Source: Candidatus Hydrogenedentota bacterium
GTDB taxonomy: Bacteria > Hydrogenedentota > Hydrogenedentia > Hydrogenedentales > JAJRTN01
Assembly (NCBI GenBank): GCA_024278275.1
Contig: JAJRTN010000030.1
Coordinates: forward strand, 1-63,256
Reading direction: 5' to 3'
DNA length: 63,256 bases
Numbering within the stretch: the first letter of the stretch is position 1; every line of letters starts with the position of its first letter. Positions 72-58,806 of this stretch are shown piece after piece. Under the pieces are notes generated by a model that was not told the origin of the DNA, made no database searches, and saw only the letters and a program-made list of their open reading frames with translations. Both the position numbers and the translations under genes were made by a program.

Positions 72-205
72 CGCCTAACCCGGCGTAGCCGGAACCAAGC
101 ATCGTCTCCACGGAAAACCGTGGTTCCGAAAAAAGTAGAAGTGGCTTCCAGCCGCTTCAAAGCGGCTGGAAGCCACTTCTACGTTTTCCCGCGAACGTGG
201 GGAAA
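72..205 (-). repeat. Modular hairpin repeat, partial copy (family 1)
   Basis: Reverse-orientation copy of the composite repeat seen most completely at 25783-26042. In order it has the AACCCGGC/GCCGG hairpin (75-98), a CCACGG/CCGTGG hairpin (109-127), the long GTAGAAG palindrome (135-182) and a degenerate CCCGCGAACG REP-like core. The remaining sequence at 1-71 and 206-245 shows no gene. Confidence 0.8.
129..182 (-). terminator. Palindrome terminator after the aldo/keto reductase gene
   Basis: Bases 135-182 form a perfect palindrome: two 23-nt arms around a 2-nt loop (CA). On the minus strand the stem is followed directly by a run of six T (129-134). This is the layout of an intrinsic terminator, and it lies 64 nt past the stop codon at 246. 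On the plus strand the stem is followed by GTTTT, so it may work in both directions. It is part of a dispersed repeat, so the terminator role is inferred from structure and position. Confidence 0.65.
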
Positions 206-245
206 GGGGTTATACGGGTGGGCCAAGGCCCACCATGGCTTATAA

Positions 246-9062: not shown

Positions 9063-9160
9063 GGGCCTGCTGAAGCGCGCCAGCGTCCCCGGTGGTTTGC
9101 CTTGCCGGGGGCCTATCCAGCCCGGGCTTTTCACCACACCGTTGTGGACCTGTATTTATC

Positions 9161-9240
9161 CTAACCCGGCTTGGCCGGGTTAGGAGCTTCCCCGTGAAGT
9201 TCTGAACCCATGGCTACGAATACATGTTTGCCCTTTCCGT
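9161..9240 (+). repeat. Modular hairpin repeat, partial copy (family 1)
   Basis: A 23-nt hairpin (9161-9183: CTAACCCGGC, loop TTG, GCCGGGTTAG) is followed by CCCGTGAAGTTCTG and an ATACATGTTT stretch. Both match the left arm of the composite repeat at 25783 and 58580. The repeat reaches into the 5' end of the open frame before hypE, which argues against a hypE start at 9224. Confidence 0.65.
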
Positions 9241-9271
9241 CGACGGTACGTTCACACCACAGGTATTGGCC

Positions 9272-14774: not shown

Positions 14775-14894
14775 GTGCCGTTTGCGAAAAGGCGATTCTC
14801 AGCGAGACCGCCACTTGATCCTGTACGTTGCGGCTCTCTTAGCCGCAACATACAGGATGGCACGTAAAAAGATCCTCCATTTCGCAAATGCCTC
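14775..14894 (+). repeat. MITE-like element (family 2), intact copy
   Basis: About 120 bp bounded by GTTTGCGAAA and TTTCGCAAATG, which are inverted repeats of each other. Inside is a strong hairpin, TCCTGTA-C-GTTGCGGCT paired with AGCCGCAAC-A-TACAGGA around a 5-nt loop. Other copies are at 6900, 17101 (inverted), 17335 (inverted, shortened), 23061, 43321 (fragment) and 63038 (truncated). Confidence 0.8.
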
Positions 14895-15054: not shown

Positions 15055-15267
15055 CAAAGGCCTTTCTCTTATGTGGCACAGCCGCCCTCGGCTGTGGGGC
15101 CGACAGGCCCCAATTGGACTCAAACTTTTACGCGCATTCAAGGTCTGTTGCTCGGAGAAGGCAAATACCCGTAAGGGGGAGATGGAACCCTGCGGGTTCC
15201 ACAGCCCCCGGTTCGGGCCGAGTACGGCCCACAGAGGGCGGCTGTGCCACATTCAAGAAAGCCTTTG
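15055..15267. repeat. 213-bp element with terminal inverted repeats of about 40 bp (family 3)
   Basis: The left end CAAAGGCCTTTCTCTTATGT followed by GGCACAGCCGCCCTCGGC is matched inverted at the right end by GGGCGGCTGTGCCACATTC and AAGAAAGCCTTTG. The core has no gene. A short piece of the end (GAATGTGGCACAGCC) recurs at 47347-47361. The structure suggests a non-autonomous mobile element. Confidence 0.7.
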
Positions 15268-17065: not shown

Positions 17066-17100
17066 GCCGGAGCGCACGGAGCGAAGTCCTTCCTTTGCAG

Positions 17101-17236
17101 AGGCATTTGCGAAATGGGGGATTTCTCCACGTGCCGCTCGCAGGAACACGTTCGGTTTCCCGGTTGCCGCCGAGAGCGCCGCAACATACCGGGTCACCTG
17201 GCGGTCTCGTTGAAACTCACCTTTTCGCAAATGGCA
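17101..17236 (-). repeat. MITE-like element (family 2), inverted copy
   Basis: Bounded by GGCATTTGCGAAATGG and CTTTTCGCAAATGGCA. The interior matches the reverse complement of the 23061 copy. It lies 35 bp upstream of the transglycosylase start, in its likely leader or promoter region. Confidence 0.75.
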
Positions 17237-23060: not shown

Positions 23061-23204
23061 TGCCATTTGCGAAAAGATGATTTTCAGCGAGACCTCCACA
23101 TGATCCTGGATGTTGCGGTTCGCTGAACCGCAACATGCAAAACACTGGGACCGAACACGGTCCTACGGATGCACGTAAAAGGATCCTCAATTTCGCAAAT
23201 GCCT
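23061..23204 (+). repeat. MITE-like element (family 2), longest copy
   Basis: 144 bp bounded by TGCCATTTGCGAAAAG and TTTCGCAAATGCC. Internal hairpin ATGTTGCGGTTCG / CGAACCGCAACAT region. A further short hairpin (GGGACCGAACACGGTCC) is missing from the 14775 copy but present at 63038. It lies directly before the GH2 gene; the 22890-23060 part of this gap has a TATACT box near 22945 and no gene. Confidence 0.8.
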
Positions 23205-23224
23205 CAACCAGGGAATCCAAGGAC

Positions 23225-25768
23225 ATGGGAACCACCCTATCACTCGATGGCGAATGGCAACTGACGGGCTACGGTTCCGGGGAGGCGGCGAAGGCCGGGG
23301 GCGAAGCCGAGTTCAGTCTCGCCGCGACGGTGCCGGGCGACGTGCATCTCGACCTGCTCCGGACCGGGCAACTTCCCGATCCCTATTTCAGTGAGAACGC
23401 GCTGGAATGCCAGTGGGTGGCGGAAAAATGGTGGACCTACCGGCGTACCTTCACGCTCGAAGCGGGCGATCTGGGCGACCGTGACACCCTTGTCTTCGAG
23501 GGTATCGACACCTACGCCACGGTGCTGTTGAACGGCGAGGCGGTCGCCGAGACGGATAACATGCACGTTCCCTGGCGCTTTGACGTGACGGGCAAGGCGC
23601 GCGTGGGGGAGAACACGCTCGAAGTGCGTTTCCTGCCGCCCCTCCTGCCCATGTCGAAGCGGGACGCGTCGAAGTATTCCGCCGCCTTTTTCACCAACTA
23701 CCGCGTCTTCGACCGCAAGATGCAATGCAGCTACGGCTGGGACTGGTGCCACCGTTTCCTCAATATCGGCTTGTGGCGCTCCGTGCGTTTCGAGTCCGCC
23801 CGCCGGGGCCGGATTGACGATGTTTTCGTGCGGGTCGGCCTGCTCGAATCGAACCGCGCCCTGGTCGATGTGGACGTGGCCTGCGAAGCCTTGACCGCCC
23901 ATGCCGATCCGACCGTGCGGGTGGTCATCGAGGATGCCGGGGGCGTGGAACAGGCCCGTTGGGAAGCGAAAGCCGACGGCCACCTTTCTACCACCCTCAC
24001 CGTGGTCCATCCCCGGTACTGGTGGCCCAACGGCGACGGAGACCAGTATTTATACACGGCGCGGGTGAGCCTGCTGGAGGGGGGAGAAGAACGGGATACG
24101 CGGACAATCCCCTTCGGCATGCGTACCGTGGATATCCTGGAAGAACCCGACGCGGTGGGTGCCAGTTTCACCGTCAGAATCAACGGCGAGAAACGCTTCA
24201 TGAAAGGGGCCGACTGGGTTCCCATGGATTCCTTCCCGGCCTCGGTCACCCCGGAGCGTTATCGGGAAGTGCTTACCCTCTTCCGCGACGCCCATTTCAA
24301 CATGCTGCGCGTGTGGGGCGGCGGCATCTACGAAGCCCCCGCCTTCTACGAGATATGCACCGAACTGGGCATTCTCCTCTGGCATGACTTCATGTTCGCC
24401 TGCGCCGAGTATCCCGAGGACGACCCCGACTTCCTGGCGAAGGTGGAACGGGAACTGCCCCTGGCCTTCCGCGCCCTGCGCAACCACACCTGTATCGCCG
24501 TGTGGTGCGGCAACAACGAAAACGGCATGAACCACCCCACCGGCAAGTATTACTACGGAAAGCATCTCTACGAAGGCTTCCTGCGCCGCCTCTTCGAGAC
24601 CGACCCCTCCCGGCCCCACCGCATCACCACGCCCTATGGCGGGGAACAGCCGAATGGTTCCGAGTCTGGCACGACCCACTGGGGCGCGTGGATGGAATGC
24701 ACCCGCACGCCGGAGCCGGAAAACTTCACGAAAAAGCTGAAGGACTGGGGCGGCCGTTTCCAGGCGGAGATCCACATCAAGGGCGCTCCGCCGGAACGGA
24801 GCCTGGCCCGTTTTCTCACCGAGGCGGAGCTTGCCGACCCGCTGGGTTCGGCCTGGCTGCACCACAGCAAGGACAACCCCCACGGCGGCTGCGACCTGAA
24901 CATGCTGGAGCGTCTCGACCTCTTCGCCTCGACCTGGTACGGCGCGCCCGACGCGCGGCGCGGCCGGGCCGCGCTGCGGGCCTACCAGCTCCGGGAAATG
25001 GTGGCCCGTCACGCCGAGGAACATCGGCGGCAAATGTACCATTGCAGCGGCGCCCTCTTCTGGATGTCCCACGACTGTTGGCCCGCCGTCTCCGGCGCGC
25101 TGGTCGATTACTACATGGCCCAGACCGCCGGTTATTTCGGCGCGAAGCACGCCTTCCAGCCGGTGCTCGTCTCCGGGGAAATCTGGGAAGACACGGCCCG
25201 GGTGGTGCTCTGCAACGACCTGCGCGAAGCCTTCGACGCGGTGGTGGACGTGGAAACCGTGGATTTCGCGGGAACCGTGCATTGGGCGGACCGCTTGACG
25301 TGTCACGTTCCCGCCAACGCCGCGACCACGGTCTTCGAGGCCCCTTTGGCGGAGATCATGCCCGAACCATGCCACGGCCATGTGCTGACCGCTCGCCTTT
25401 ACCGCGATGACGTATTGCTGGGCAAAACCGTGGTGCTGCCCTTACTTCCCCGCGAGATGGCCATTCCCGACATCACCCTTTCCGCCGAAATCGTCGAGCG
25501 GACCGGCACGGAGGTAACCCTCGCCCTTCGGGCCGGGGGCTTCGCCCACGTGGTAACCATTGACCCGGAAGGCAACCTGCCCGGCGGTCCCCACGATCCC
25601 ACGGGCATGCCGGAACAATGGGATGCCGTGGTGTTGTCGGACAACTATTTCCATCTCCTCGCCGGGGAGGAGCGGAACATCCACGTGCGCCTTCGCTACC
25701 CCGGCAAGGTGGAGCGCCTCACCGTGCGTGCCTGGAACGCCGACCCGGTGGCGGTGTCACTCGGCTGA
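23225..25768 (+). CDS. Glycoside hydrolase family 2, beta-mannosidase-like
   Basis: An 847-residue enzyme with the beta-mannosidase plan: an N-terminal jelly roll (about 1-190, WQLTGYGSG, GDVHLDLL, WWTYRRTF), an Ig-like domain (about 190-290), a TIM barrel (about 295-640) and C-terminal Ig-like domains. The acid/base is Glu432 in WCGNNENG. The likely nucleophile is Glu515 in FQAEIHIKGAP, at the place of the family's SEFG motif. The reaction is release of non-reducing beta-mannose, from mannan fragments or N-glycan cores. No signal peptide is visible, so it probably works in the cytoplasm on imported oligosaccharides. The chosen ATG gives the family-typical start; the open frame upstream is repeat sequence. 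Confidence 0.9.
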   Translation: MGTTLSLDGEWQLTGYGSGEAAKAGGEAEFSLAATVPGDVHLDLLRTGQLPDPYFSENALECQWVAEKWWTYRRTFTLEAGDLGDRDTLVFEGIDTYATVLLNGEAVAETDNMHVPWRFDVTGKARVGENTLEVRFLPPLLPMSKRDASKYSAAFFTNYRVFDRKMQCSYGWDWCHRFLNIGLWRSVRFESARRGRIDDVFVRVGLLESNRALVDVDVACEALTAHADPTVRVVIEDAGGVEQARWEAKADGHLSTTLTVVHPRYWWPNGDGDQYLYTARVSLLEGGEERDTRTIPFGMRTVDILEEPDAVGASFTVRINGEKRFMKGADWVPMDSFPASVTPERYREVLTLFRDAHFNMLRVWGGGIYEAPAFYEICTELGILLWHDFMFACAEYPEDDPDFLAKVERELPLAFRALRNHTCIAVWCGNNENGMNHPTGKYYYGKHLYEGFLRRLFETDPSRPHRITTPYGGEQPNGSESGTTHWGAWMECTRTPEPENFTKKLKDWGGRFQAEIHIKGAPPERSLARFLTEAELADPLGSAWLHHSKDNPHGGCDLNMLERLDLFASTWYGAPDARRGRAALRAYQLREMVARHAEEHRRQMYHCSGALFWMSHDCWPAVSGALVDYYMAQTAGYFGAKHAFQPVLVSGEIWEDTARVVLCNDLREAFDAVVDVETVDFAGTVHWADRLTCHVPANAATTVFEAPLAEIMPEPCHGHVLTARLYRDDVLLGKTVVLPLLPREMAIPDITLSAEIVERTGTEVTLALRAGGFAHVVTIDPEGNLPGGPHDPTGMPEQWDAVVLSDNYFHLLAGEERNIHVRLRYPGKVERLTVRAWNADPVAVSLG

Positions 25769-25782
25769 AAAAACGCTGTTTT

Positions 25783-26042
25783 TAGTCCCTTACCCGTGAA
25801 GTTCTGTGCAAATGATCATGAATACGTTTCTGCCTCTCCCTTCCGTCATTCCCGCGAACGCGGGAATCCACGGGAAAAGGTCAAGGTGTTGCCCCCTATT
25901 ATGGTCCCCCTCTTTTGCGGGGATGACGGTAATGTAGAAGCGGCTTCCAGCCGCTTTGAAGAGGCTGGAAGCCTCTTCTACTTTGCTTTGGAACCACGGT
26001 TCTCCGTGGAGACGATTCCTGGTTCCGGCTACGCCGGGTTAG
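25783..26042 (+). repeat. Modular hairpin repeat (family 1), fullest copy
   Basis: About 260 bp filling most of the gap between the GH2 and M32 genes. Modules in order: left arm (TACCCGTGAAGTTCTG), REP-like palindrome ATTCCCGCG-AA-CGCGGGAAT (25853-25872), spacer, inverted REP-like half (TTTGCGGGGATGACGG), a 48-nt palindrome with two mismatches (25934-25981, GTAGAAG...CTTCTAC), a CCACGGTTCTCCGTGG hairpin and a GGTTCCGGC-TAC-GCCGGGTTAG hairpin. The REP core fits the general ATTCCC-N8-GGGAAT pattern known as dRS3 in Neisseria. Confidence 0.85.
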
Positions 26043-26124
26043 GAAGCTCCGGGCGAAATAGACTACAACGCATGTCCACCAGGGCCACGGGGTCCACCCC
26101 CGCGGTACAGGAGAAGACTTCAAC

Positions 26125-27639
26125 ATGACGATAGAATCCACGCTGACCACTTTTCGTGAACGGCTGGGCGAGGTGATGGACCTTCACCAGGCGGCCAGCG
26201 TCCTCCACTGGGACCAGGAGGTTTTCATGCCGCCCAAGGGCGCCGCCGCCCGGGGCCGGCAACTGGCCACCCTCTCCGCCGTGGCCCACCGCTACTTCAC
26301 GCGCGAGGAAATGGGCCGTCTGCTCGATGAACTGACCGAGGCCGCAGACCAACTCGACCCGGACGACGCGAAGCTGGTCGAGGTGACCCGCTACGATTAC
26401 GAACGGGAGACGAAACTCCCCGAGGCCTTCGTGCAGGCTTTCGCCCTGGCCCAGAGCGCCGCCTACGAGGCCTGGGTCAAGGCGCGGGAGACGGATTCCT
26501 TCGCCACCTTCCAGCCCCATCTCGAAAAGATCCTGGACCTGTTGCACGAAAAAGCGGACTACCTGGGCTACGAAGGGTCGTCCTACAACGCCTTGCTCGA
26601 AGAATACGAGCGGGGCATGACCGTGGAGACCCTGCGCGGCCTGTTTGACGTGGTTGCGGAACGCCAGAGCGCCCTGGTGGAAAAGATCGTGAACGCCCCC
26701 GACCCGCCTGACCTGGCCTGGACCCGGGGACCGTGGGACGAAGACGCCCAATGGACCATGACCCTCCGTCTGCTCCAGGATATGGGCTACGATTTCGAGG
26801 CGGGCCGGCAGGACCGAAGCGTCCATCCCTTCACCACCAGCTTCGGCGCCCGGGACGTGCGGCTCACCAACCGGGTCAGCCCGGACGACCTGTTCAGCGC
26901 CCTCCATGGCGCGGCCCACGAGGGTGGCCATGGCCTCTACGAGCAGGGCTTCCAGGAGAAGGATGGCCGCACCCCCCTGGCCGACGGCATTTCCCTGGGG
27001 GTGCATGAATCCCAGTCACGCATGTGGGAGAACATGATTGGCCGCAGTCTGCCCTTCTGGGAACACTACGCGCCCGTCCTCCGGGACCTTCACCCCGGAA
27101 GACTCGACGGCATCACGCCGCAGCAGTTTTACCAGGCGGTCAATCATGTGCAACCTTCCCTCATCCGCGTGGAGGCCGACGAATGCACCTACAACCTGCA
27201 CGTCATCCTGCGTTTCGAGATCGAGGTGGCCCTCATGGAGGGCGAGATCGCCGTGGCGGAGATTCCCGAGGCCTGGAACGCGAAGATGAAGCAATACCTC
27301 GGGCTGGACGTGCCTTCCGACGCACAAGGTTGCCTCCAGGACATCCACTGGTCCCACGGCAGCCTGGGCTATTTCCCCACCTACGCCCTGGGCAACCTCT
27401 ACGCCGCCCAGTTGTTCGAGAAGATTCTCGAAGACCTGCCCGGCCTTTGGGATGACGTTCGCGCCGCCAACTTCGCGCCCCTCCTCGGTTGGTTGCGTGA
27501 AAACGTGCACCGCCATGGGCGGCGGAAGACCGCGGTGGAATTGATCCGGGACATCACCGGCCGTCCCCCCGCGCCAGGCCCTTACCTGACTTACCTGGAG
27601 GAGAAATACGGTCGCCTCTATGGCTTGTCGGGAGGGTGA
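26125..27639 (+). CDS. M32-family carboxypeptidase Taq
   Basis: A 504-residue zinc metallocarboxypeptidase that removes C-terminal amino acids with broad specificity. It is almost all helical, as the family is. The zinc motif HEGGH is at His265-Glu266-His269, and the third ligand Glu lies in the downstream HESQSRMWEN motif. The family marker DIHWSHGSLGYFPTYALGN is present near the C-terminus. Length is standard. The gene stands alone, convergent with the DUF4268 gene. No signal peptide, so cytoplasmic peptide turnover is most likely. Confidence 0.95.
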   Translation: MTIESTLTTFRERLGEVMDLHQAASVLHWDQEVFMPPKGAAARGRQLATLSAVAHRYFTREEMGRLLDELTEAADQLDPDDAKLVEVTRYDYERETKLPEAFVQAFALAQSAAYEAWVKARETDSFATFQPHLEKILDLLHEKADYLGYEGSSYNALLEEYERGMTVETLRGLFDVVAERQSALVEKIVNAPDPPDLAWTRGPWDEDAQWTMTLRLLQDMGYDFEAGRQDRSVHPFTTSFGARDVRLTNRVSPDDLFSALHGAAHEGGHGLYEQGFQEKDGRTPLADGISLGVHESQSRMWENMIGRSLPFWEHYAPVLRDLHPGRLDGITPQQFYQAVNHVQPSLIRVEADECTYNLHVILRFEIEVALMEGEIAVAEIPEAWNAKMKQYLGLDVPSDAQGCLQDIHWSHGSLGYFPTYALGNLYAAQLFEKILEDLPGLWDDVRAANFAPLLGWLRENVHRHGRRKTAVELIRDITGRPPAPGPYLTYLEEKYGRLYGLSGG

Positions 27640-27683: not shown

Positions 27684-27770
27684 CCCGTGGGAATGCCTCT
27701 CGCGGGCGTTTCGCCCGTGGCTTTCCGCGCCGCGCGATACTGGCGGTGCGCTGAAGCGCACCCTGATACA
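27684..27770 (-). repeat. Direct repeat, copy 1 (family 5), after the DUF4268 gene
   Basis: About 87 bp. It starts CCCGTGGGAATGCCTC, has the hairpins CGGGCGTTTCGCCCG and GGTGCGCT-GA-AGCGCACC, and ends 3 bp from the DUF4268 stop codon. It matches 28968-29049 in the same orientation with few differences. Sitting right after a stop codon with two hairpins, it could also act in transcription termination or mRNA 3' protection. Confidence 0.75.
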
Positions 27771-28967: not shown

Positions 28968-29049
28968 CCCGTGGGAATGCCTATTCGGGCGTTTCGCCCG
29001 TGGCTTTCCGCGCCGTGCGATACTGGTGCTGCGCCGAAGCACACCCTTA
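28968..29049 (-). repeat. Direct repeat, copy 2 (family 5), after alaS
   Basis: About 82 bp matching 27684-27770 in the same orientation. It includes the alaS stop codon at its edge, so both copies follow the stop of a minus-strand gene. Hairpin GGGCGTTTCGCCC is kept; the second hairpin is imperfect here. Confidence 0.75.
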
Positions 29050-33759: not shown

Positions 33760-33850
33760 TTGCTGCCTATTCCGGCAGGTTCCATGCCATGGCGCGACGC
33801 CTTGCCCTTTCCCCATGGGTTCCTGCTTTCGCGGGAATGACGGGCGGGGT
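33760..33850 (-). repeat. Modular hairpin repeat, partial copy (family 1)
   Basis: CTGCTTTCGCGGGAATGACGG is the inverted REP half; the left part (CTATTCCGGCAGGTTCCATGCC) is diverged. It fills much of the 242-bp gap between the flippase-sulfatase and GHMP kinase genes. Confidence 0.55.
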
Positions 33851-33920
33851 GGGACAACCACGTTATTGTGGCCATTTGCGGGATTTCACGGGCGAGGGAC
33901 TACAGCGGTCGTCTTCCGCT

Positions 33921-39636: not shown

Positions 39637-39872
39637 TCACCCGGCCCGCTTGACCGGAACCGGGAATCGCGTCTCCACAGGGAACCGCCGTGGTTCCGCG
39701 GTAACGTAGAAGAGGCTGGCAGCCGATTCTACCTTACCGTCATCCCCGCGAAGGCTGGGATCCATGACAGGAGGCAACACCCTGCCCTTTTTCGTGGATT
39801 CCCGCGTTCGCGGGAATGACGGGGAGGGAGCATGAACCCCTTTTCTTGACCATTCGTGCGGAACTTCATTGC
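39637..39872 (-). repeat. Modular hairpin repeat (family 1), full inverted copy
   Basis: Reverse-orientation counterpart of 25783-26042: CACCCGGCCCGC/GACCGGAACC module, CCACAGGGAACCGCCGTGG hairpin, a shortened GTAGAAG...TTCTAC hairpin, GTCATCCCCGCGAAGGCTGG, spacer, ATTCCCGCG-TT-CGCGGGAAT palindrome, and the left arm read backwards (GTGCGGAACTTCAT). With the family 4 copy it accounts for most of the 663-bp gap before 40132. Confidence 0.8.
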
Positions 39873-39988
39873 TAAGAAATTAACGGCTTCAACGCAACTA
39901 CGTATGGATGCGTAGCATGAAAAGTTTCGCTTTTTTTAAGGCCTTCTTGAGGGTAAGGGACCAACCCGGCGCAGCCGGAACAAAAGGC

Positions 39989-43226: not shown

Positions 43227-43320
43227 CGCCATGATCTCCGTCCCGTGGATCTTTTCGTGTGTTTCGTGTTCCAGGCATTGTAATCATTCACGGCGCAATC
43301 CGCCAAATGTTCATAAACTT

Positions 43321-43360
43321 GGGGCACTTGCGAAATTGAGGATCCTTTCAAGTGCCATTC
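43321..43360 (-). repeat. MITE-like element (family 2), one-end fragment
   Basis: GGGCACTTGCGAAATTGAGG followed by ATCCTTTCAAGTGCC: one inverted end only, matching the 17101 and 23061 copies. Confidence 0.5.
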
Positions 43361-43368
43361 ATGGGGCC

Positions 43369-43460
43369 GCGTTCGCGGGAATGACGGATCCTGTGCCGCC
43401 CGCCATGCGGCGCATGACCCTACCCGGCCTGGCCGTAACCAGGAATCACGGTTTTCGGTC
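43369..43460 (-). repeat. Modular hairpin repeat (family 1), fragment
   Basis: TTCGCGGGAATGACGGATCC (inverted REP half), an unrelated or diverged spacer, then CTACCCGGCCTGGCCGTAAC and CACGG, the AACCCGGC module. Confidence 0.55.
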
Positions 43461-45627: not shown

Positions 45628-45709
45628 GCCGCACGGACGAACACGAAACGTATTGGCGCTGCCGTGAAACGCCTTAGTATGGAATACGGCGCCTGCCCAC
45701 GTTTCATAT

Positions 45710-45852
45710 CGTCATCTCCGCGAACGCGGGGATCCATGGGGGGCGGATTTGTTTTGACCCATTCCATGGATTTCCGCTTTCGCGGGACGGACGGTGGGCG
45801 TGGCAGGAACGGCGGTTGCGATTCCCGCTTCCGGCCAAACCGGGTTGGGAGA
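45710..45852 (+). repeat. Modular hairpin repeat (family 1), partial copy
   Basis: CGTCATCTCCGCG-AA-CGCGGGGATCC and the inverted CCGCTTTCGCGGGACGG pair, then GTGGGCGTGGCAGGAACGGC and GGTTGCGATTCCCGCTTCCG, which match the corresponding parts of the 58580 copy. No left arm. With it the 314-bp sucD/phosphatase gap is largely explained. Confidence 0.7.
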
Positions 45853-49226: not shown

Positions 49227-49229
49227 CGG

Positions 49230-49300
49230 TTCACGGACCAACGTAGAAGCGGCTTCCACCCGCTTCGAATGCGGCAGGATGCCGCATCCATGTTACCCTT
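49230..49300 (+). repeat. Modular hairpin repeat (family 1), degenerate fragment
   Basis: ACGTAGAAGCGGCTTCCACC followed by GCTTCGAATGCGGCAGGATG: the GTAGAAG module with its right arm lost. Confidence 0.5.
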
Positions 49301-49342
49301 ATTCCGGTTCCGACCCCAAAACCAAAGCATAGGAGACCTTTC

Positions 49343-58579: not shown

Positions 58580-58806
58580 TAGTCTCTTACCTGTGAAGTT
58601 CTGTTCAAATTGTCACGAAAAAATATTCGCCCCTCCCTTCCGTCATTCCCGCGAACGCGGGAATCCACGGAAAAGGTCAATGTGATGCCCCCCATCATGG
58701 ATCCCCGCTTTCGCGGGGATGACGGTTGGTCGTGGCATGAACGGCTGTAGCGATTCTTGGTTCCGGCTACGCCGGGTTAGGCGCCTCCACGGAGAACTGT
58801 GGGAAC
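58580..58806 (+). repeat. Modular hairpin repeat (family 1), large copy with reordered modules
   Basis: Left arm (TAGTCTCTTACCTGTGAAG), REP palindrome ATTCCCGCG-AA-CGCGGGAAT, spacer, inverted CCCCGCTTTCGCGGGG, then GGTTCCGGC-TAC-GCCGGGTTAG followed by CCACGGAGAACTGTGGG. The GTAGAAG module is missing and the last two hairpins are in the opposite order to 25783-26042. It fills a third of the 651-bp gap before 59191. Confidence 0.8.

Follow-up and report, generated by a model that had tools for sequence, protein, structure and literature searches.

The CGTC-1 family of REP sequences includes dRS3 of Neisseria. As far as the available text of the 2013 survey goes, no transposase is known for CGTC REPs, and for the CGTC and GTAG superfamilies nothing closer than occurrence within one genome is reported (Di Nocera et al. 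2013, PMC3733652). REPs are also known as targets of IS (Tobes and Pareja 2006, PMC1525189). In the Enterobacteria, alternating REPs build mosaics in extragenic DNA, which are called BIMEs. In the intergenic mosaic elements of Neisseria, dRS3-type REPs are combined with other repeat families. MITEs are short, non-coding, dispersed elements with defined ends.

An element that resembles each of these systems is present in many copies across the genome of Candidatus Hydrogenedentota bacterium (assembly GCA_024278275.1). It was analysed starting from a window of 63,256 nucleotides (the whole of positions 1 to 63,256 of contig JAJRTN010000030.1, to which all coordinates refer). The element is non-coding and about 200-260 bp long, has fixed ends and a fixed internal order, and is mostly fragmented now. 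In comparison with BIMEs, its outer limits are defined, it contains modules that are not REPs (L, X, H1 and H2), and it unites two REP superfamilies. In the neisserial mosaics, dRS3 clusters are interleaved with different families, whereas the present element keeps an almost invariant order and spacing and holds its REP dimer inside. The composite is real, ordered and lineage-specific, with embedded REP dimers, and is a new arrangement of known repeat types (BIME/NIME-like mosaics).

A full copy lies on the plus strand at 25783-26043, flanked by genes for a family 2 glycoside hydrolase (23135-25768) and an M32 carboxypeptidase (26125-27639). Its best genome copies are 82-90% identical over 255-266 bp. 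The left end, L (25783-25842, plus strand), starts with TAGTCCCTTACCCGTGAAGTTCTGTGCAAAT and was scored over 25787-25827. Two CGTC REPs follow, R+ (25844-25870, plus strand) and the inverted R- (25902-25928, minus strand), 30-31 bp of conserved spacer apart. The R consensus, CGTCATTCCCGCGAANGCGGGAATCCA, has the CGTC tag, the 8-bp stem starting with AT (ATTCCCGC/GCGGGAAT), the 4-nt loop and the CCA tail of the CGTC-1 family. As in that family, R forms inverted dimers (45 R+/R- pairs, spaced 28-37 bp, median 30), and no R was seen in the examined flanks of the Y1/RAYT loci, in keeping with the lack of a dedicated transposase flanked by the repeat. Judged by its sequence, the RR pair consists of two copies of the known CGTC-1 (dRS3-like) REP, inverted relative to each other; this repeat also stands alone in relatives. 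Relative to the family as the available survey text presents it (Di Nocera et al. 2013, PMC3733652), the difference is that a single dimer, its spacer conserved, lies beside a GTAG dimer within a larger element that has ends of its own.

This GTAG dimer, P, occupies 25934-25981 and forms two 8-bp hairpins; its REP unit is GTAG plus AAGCGGCT TCC AGCCGCTT. The tag, the hairpins and the inverted dimers are those of the GTAG superfamily, which identifies P as two copies of the known GTAG REP in inverted arrangement. A single long hairpin was rejected for P, as its pairing falls below that of shuffles and two hairpins fit better. RAYT-like genes are present in the genome, as with GTAG REPs and REPINs; unlike these, P stands at a fixed distance within a composite, and no RAYT flanked by P was found here or at 30 RAYT loci of the class. 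The right part of the copy is formed by H1 (25991-26014, plus strand), a small hairpin with the sequence GAACCACGGTTCTCCGTGGAGACG, and by the right end, H2 (26013-26043, plus strand), CGATTCCTGGTTCCGGC TAC GCCGGGTTAGG. The preliminary description spoke of a REP-like pair and a GTAGAAG palindrome; both repeats are real and are more precisely genuine dimers of REPs, the first of the CGTC and the second of the GTAG superfamily. The genome-wide count that it called for gave 70-179 matches per unit pattern in 5.35 Mb, with 0-6 for the reversed-pattern controls: 179 (control 0) for R, 150 (6) for the P half-unit, 70 (0) for H1, 137 (1) for H2 and 98 (3) for L at up to three mismatches. An Rfam scan of the window gave no match at gathering scores.

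Two subtypes could be aligned. Subtype A, L-RR-P-H1-H2, measures ~260 bp (seven copies; 25783-26043 in the window), and subtype B, L-RR-X-H2, ~200 bp (eight copies; 58580-58781 in the window). X, which is missing from the units listed in the preliminary description, is a module directly before H2 with the sequence GGTCGTGGCATGAACGGCTGTAGCGATT, seen in the latter copy. Column conservation places the tips of the element at TAGTCCCTTACCCG...CGGGTTAGG and shows both boundaries to be sharp. Conservation is at background at once outside TAGTCCCTTACCCG on the left, where TAGT is conserved at the border, and outside GGGTTAGG on the right, where it falls from 1.6 to 0.05 bits. With the 260-bp copy as query, the genome search returned about ten near-full-length matches of 76-90% identity and many partial ones. 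Even the most alike full copies reach an identity of only 94% (A) and 90% (B), so recent movement is not apparent.

The units had been thought to be shuffled between copies. However, the architecture tally reveals one nearly invariant order and orientation, L, RR, P-H1 or X, H2, with H1 followed by H2 60 times, L by H2 44 times and reversed orders rare. Spacings are near-constant as well: L-R 16, R-R 30, R-P 5, h-h 10, P-H1 9, H1-H2 6, R-X 3 and X-H2 3 bp, with a gap of 10-12 bp in 38/38 P dimer pairs. The full reading covered ~1.26 Mb of the 5.35-Mb genome, taken by position, plus loci around unit matches. In this 1.26-Mb sample, which consists of stretches of larger contigs drawn from unit-match lists and is not perfectly random, the canonical order and spacing is seen at 97 adjacencies; random placement of these units in intergenic DNA gave a mean of 0.23 and a maximum of 2. 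By a simple codon-score gene call, 59 of the 62 multi-unit clusters lie between genes; ~15% of the sample is non-coding. Genome-wide copies with only independent single hairpins and no conserved linkage had been named beforehand as the finding that would speak against a modular element; linkage is conserved.

All nine sites of the window at which units had been reported (72, 9161, 25783, 33760, 39637, 43369, 45710, 49230 and 58580) indeed carry them, according to local alignment and unit scans. The subtype B copy at 58580-58781 (plus strand; profile B positions 2-202) had been read as a copy with its last two units swapped. Instead, X replaces P-H1 there, and the unit scan finds the H1-like fragment inverted and beyond the right end, at 58782-58805 on the minus strand. 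A diverged, nearly full subtype A copy lies on the minus strand at 39645-39881 (profile A positions 3-254, E 1.7e-47), with an extra H2 beside it at 39960-39982. That some copies lack units was seen correctly. The site at 9160-9241 (plus strand; local alignment, unit scan and profile) has just the two ends in tandem, the H2 palindrome with the L end directly after it, and 49229-49305 is only a P dimer with an R- remnant (local alignment, profile). A 5'-truncated subtype A copy with an R- remnant, P, H1 and H2 lies at 74-215 (minus strand; unit scan and profile), an L-RR fragment without the right part at 33778-33902 (minus strand; profile A positions 1-125), H2 with a 22-bp R fragment at 43367-43447 (minus strand; local alignment, unit scan) and a subtype B copy without L, RR-X-H2, at 45703-45849 (plus strand; profile B positions 55-202).

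Other repeats are dispersed in the same DNA. The palindrome GGTGGGCCNNGGCCCACC (217-234) is abundant, with 78 strand-wise matches in 1.26 Mb (control 4); it is its own reverse complement, and the number of places is about half of that. Parts of GCACGTAAAAAGATCCTCCATTTCGCAAATGCCTC, found at 14860-14894, 23171-23205, 17100-17135 and 43319-43355, occur in 13-17 copies in 1.26 Mb. The inverted repeat GAGGGCGGCTGTGCCACAT (15057-15089 and 15234-15266) has 19 copies in the 1.26-Mb sample (control 1). A direct repeat of 62 bp (27703-27764 and 28986-29047) is 92% identical over its two copies, 1283 bp apart.

The composite appears to be confined to a narrow lineage. The source genome is the sole member of its family, in a class of 68 genomes and one order, so that no empty site can be compared. 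The R to P junction occurs 22 times in this genome and in none of the other 67 of the class. L, H1 and H2 are not among the class matches listed at E 0.001; H1-like matches in the 67 relatives amount to three, each single and at the 3-mismatch limit, which is the level of absence or chance. Among 85k GTDB genomes, the long exact H1-H2 pattern has no match and the junction pattern a single exact one; the viral contigs searched gave none. The single match (locus L309) lies on contig JAJRSS010000127.1, binned as Alphaproteobacteria (isolate Dive96_bin1.131), and carries R-P-H1-H2. Bins whose names begin with Dive96 have been described in a vent study of the Southwest Indian Ridge. The L309 composite is at most 92% identical to copies of the source genome, and its GC is nearly the same. 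Since the IS end at L309 matches two contig ends of the source genome with 100% identity over 105 bp, mis-binning of a contig from a close relative is a more likely, though unproven, explanation than transfer.

The spacer inside RR gives an indication of how the dimer came to be part of the element. Nearly all composites have one spacer sequence, cgggaaaggtcaaggtgttgcccccyatca. In comparison, about four of the 13 stand-alone RR dimers of this genome have the composite spacer and the others have different ones, and the RR dimers of relatives have unrelated spacers of 23-36 bp. Because one spacer prevails inside the composites and mostly unrelated ones outside, the simplest reading of these sequences is that one RR dimer of the resident population entered the element and was then copied with it. 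P-type dimers are also free-standing in relatives, and by analogy P may have entered by a similar capture.

The partial copies suggest what happened afterwards. Some copies have both ends without the inner modules, and when read by eye their joints lie at short words common to both modules: R is joined to H1 at CCACGG in locus L163, and L to H1 at TTC in locus L257. Several L-only copies stop within the R stem. These joints and ends, together with the positions of profile-match edges given below, indicate that most of the variety goes back to an ordered element that underwent deletions and truncations.

Several observations bear on the way of spreading. No target duplication was found in 42 end-to-end copies, with no excess over shuffled pairs at 2-9 bp. 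Most copies have unrelated flanks; over 60 bp, only 8 pairs among 126 flanks are alike, some of them being other repeats or an IS end. The left tip, CTTACCCG, and the right tip, CTAACCCG, show a weak inverted match of 7/8, read by eye from column conservation. Unlike MITEs, the element shows no target-site duplication. The similarity of its ends is only weak, and an autonomous partner was not seen among the matches listed (for H2, the best 100 of 137), which contain no long L...H2 pair. An element derived from IS200/IS605 would be expected to have subterminal hairpins, no target duplication and insertion 3' of a fixed motif; here duplication was not detected, TAGT is conserved at the left border, and the fold shows a hairpin at the right end and a weak one at the left. 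Insertion without duplication fits, but does not prove, a trans-acting mechanism of the single-strand (HUH/Y1) type or a similar one.

A Y1 (RAYT-type) transposase flanked by the same REP had been named as something to look for. Such genes exist in the genome (six Pfam Y1 matches and three RAYT-model matches at E 1e-15), but the units were not seen beside any of them. Of the Y1 proteins examined, two score below the curated cut-off of the RAYT model, and a third gene, on contig C130, exceeds it. L, R, P, H1 and H2 are absent from the examined flanks of these genes, several of which lie at contig ends with one flank only. The 30 class RAYT loci have no units either, except one H1 match in L273 at the loosest cut-off (6 mismatches). 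Near the four strongest class RAYTs (173-182 bits; L259-L262, in relatives G005, G006, G008 and G010), other GTAG-type repeats were seen by eye, e.g., GTAGGGTGGGTG and GTAGGCCGGGTGGAGCGGAACC.

We consider it likely that the composite is a short, non-autonomous, probably mobile family with L and H2 as ends, which captured REP dimers, spread and then degraded. An ancestor with L on the left and H2 on the right would have taken up one CGTC-1 REP dimer. The branch of subtype A would then hold the GTAG REP dimer and H1 as well, and the branch of subtype B would hold X instead, although the captures may have occurred in another order. The whole element would have been copied to many intergenic sites, presumably by transposition, and later truncation and deletion between short shared words would give it the modular look. 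Effects on transcripts, such as termination or protection of mRNA ends, would be a by-product. A more far-reaching version, which we put forward only tentatively, is that of an undescribed class of non-autonomous mobile elements that have ends of their own, duplicate no target, take up ready-made REP dimers of the two superfamilies and spread them as cargo, and whose CGTC loops serve an IS as landing sites.

The preliminary description proposed a BIME-type system that assembles from parts. A linked composite including REP dimers stands, but free shuffling does not, as there is one order with truncations, internal deletions and one module replacement. A related explanation is a BIME- or REPIN-like assembly, in which independent mobile REP units insert repeatedly beside or inside other repeats and mosaics grow stepwise. 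It would agree with the R and P dimers found alone here and in relatives, and with profile-match edges that are moderately enriched at unit borders (26/68 starts and 40/80 ends, against 22% expected), an enrichment partly inflated by the A/B switch point and accompanied by many edges elsewhere. Independent insertions, however, would not yield a spacing that is constant within a few bases (5 bp from R- to P in 21/21), the rarity of reverse orders or the single RR spacer, and we regard this assembly as unlikely. It is very improbable that the units are mainly IS debris or recombination targets, i.e., landing sites retained by IS targeting of the R loops. At 6 of the 6 junctions found in the sequence examined, IS ends AAAAAATCTCTGC (13-mer, up to one mismatch) do adjoin the R hairpin loop (L016, C101 end; L023, C144 end; L095, C185 start; L175, C133 start; L240, C3 start; and the start of L309). 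AAAAAATCTCTGC is preceded by two different sequences, suggesting a single IS with inverted repeats that is seen from both ends. An ORF tail, MNLPEKLRDEGIEPRIPWLYGLELDFRFK, lies at one of them, and this 29-aa protein tail has no match in the Pfam or plasmid searches. Contigs break at these junctions, and IS-interrupted copies are therefore under-assembled. Yet such targeting accounts for insertions into R and not for the existence, order and ends of L...H2, and most copies are IS-free.

One unit had been taken to double as a terminator at 129-182. A selected module at transcript 3' ends, with hairpins that end transcription or shield mRNA ends, could draw on several features. The whole element strand folds at z = -5.5, the sequence after P is T-rich on the H1 side, and the copy at 74-215 contains a strong terminator-like site on the minus strand (182-135), in which P forms a 48-nt hairpin followed by T6. 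The R hairpin is supported by covariation, with 27 compensatory changes against a shuffle maximum of 25, and the two P hairpins weakly so. The R counts, however, can stem from two arm types inherited by descent; H1 and H2 were ruled out as maintained RNA hairpins by the absence of covariation and compensatory changes, and subtype B has no P. Relative to unidirectional transcription, 18 copies lie on the same strand and 17 on the opposite one, which speaks against a directional terminator function, and multi-unit copies in convergent gaps (14/53, these gaps being ~19% of intergenic length) show no clear excess. A terminator-like site at 135-182 is thus possible, but a genome-wide role is not borne out; without strand bias, the terminator role is incidental. 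The data do not support selection of the whole element for a regulatory role, and we hold a 3'-end module to be improbable. The element is probably mobile DNA and not a gene-control device.

For the REPs themselves, a CGTC dimer amplified within an element with separate ends would offer a concrete route by which such repeats may spread, namely hitch-hiking. The CGTC and GTAG superfamilies are physically joined here. The element provides a test case for mosaic intergenic repeats that may arise through capture and deletion rather than through free shuffling.
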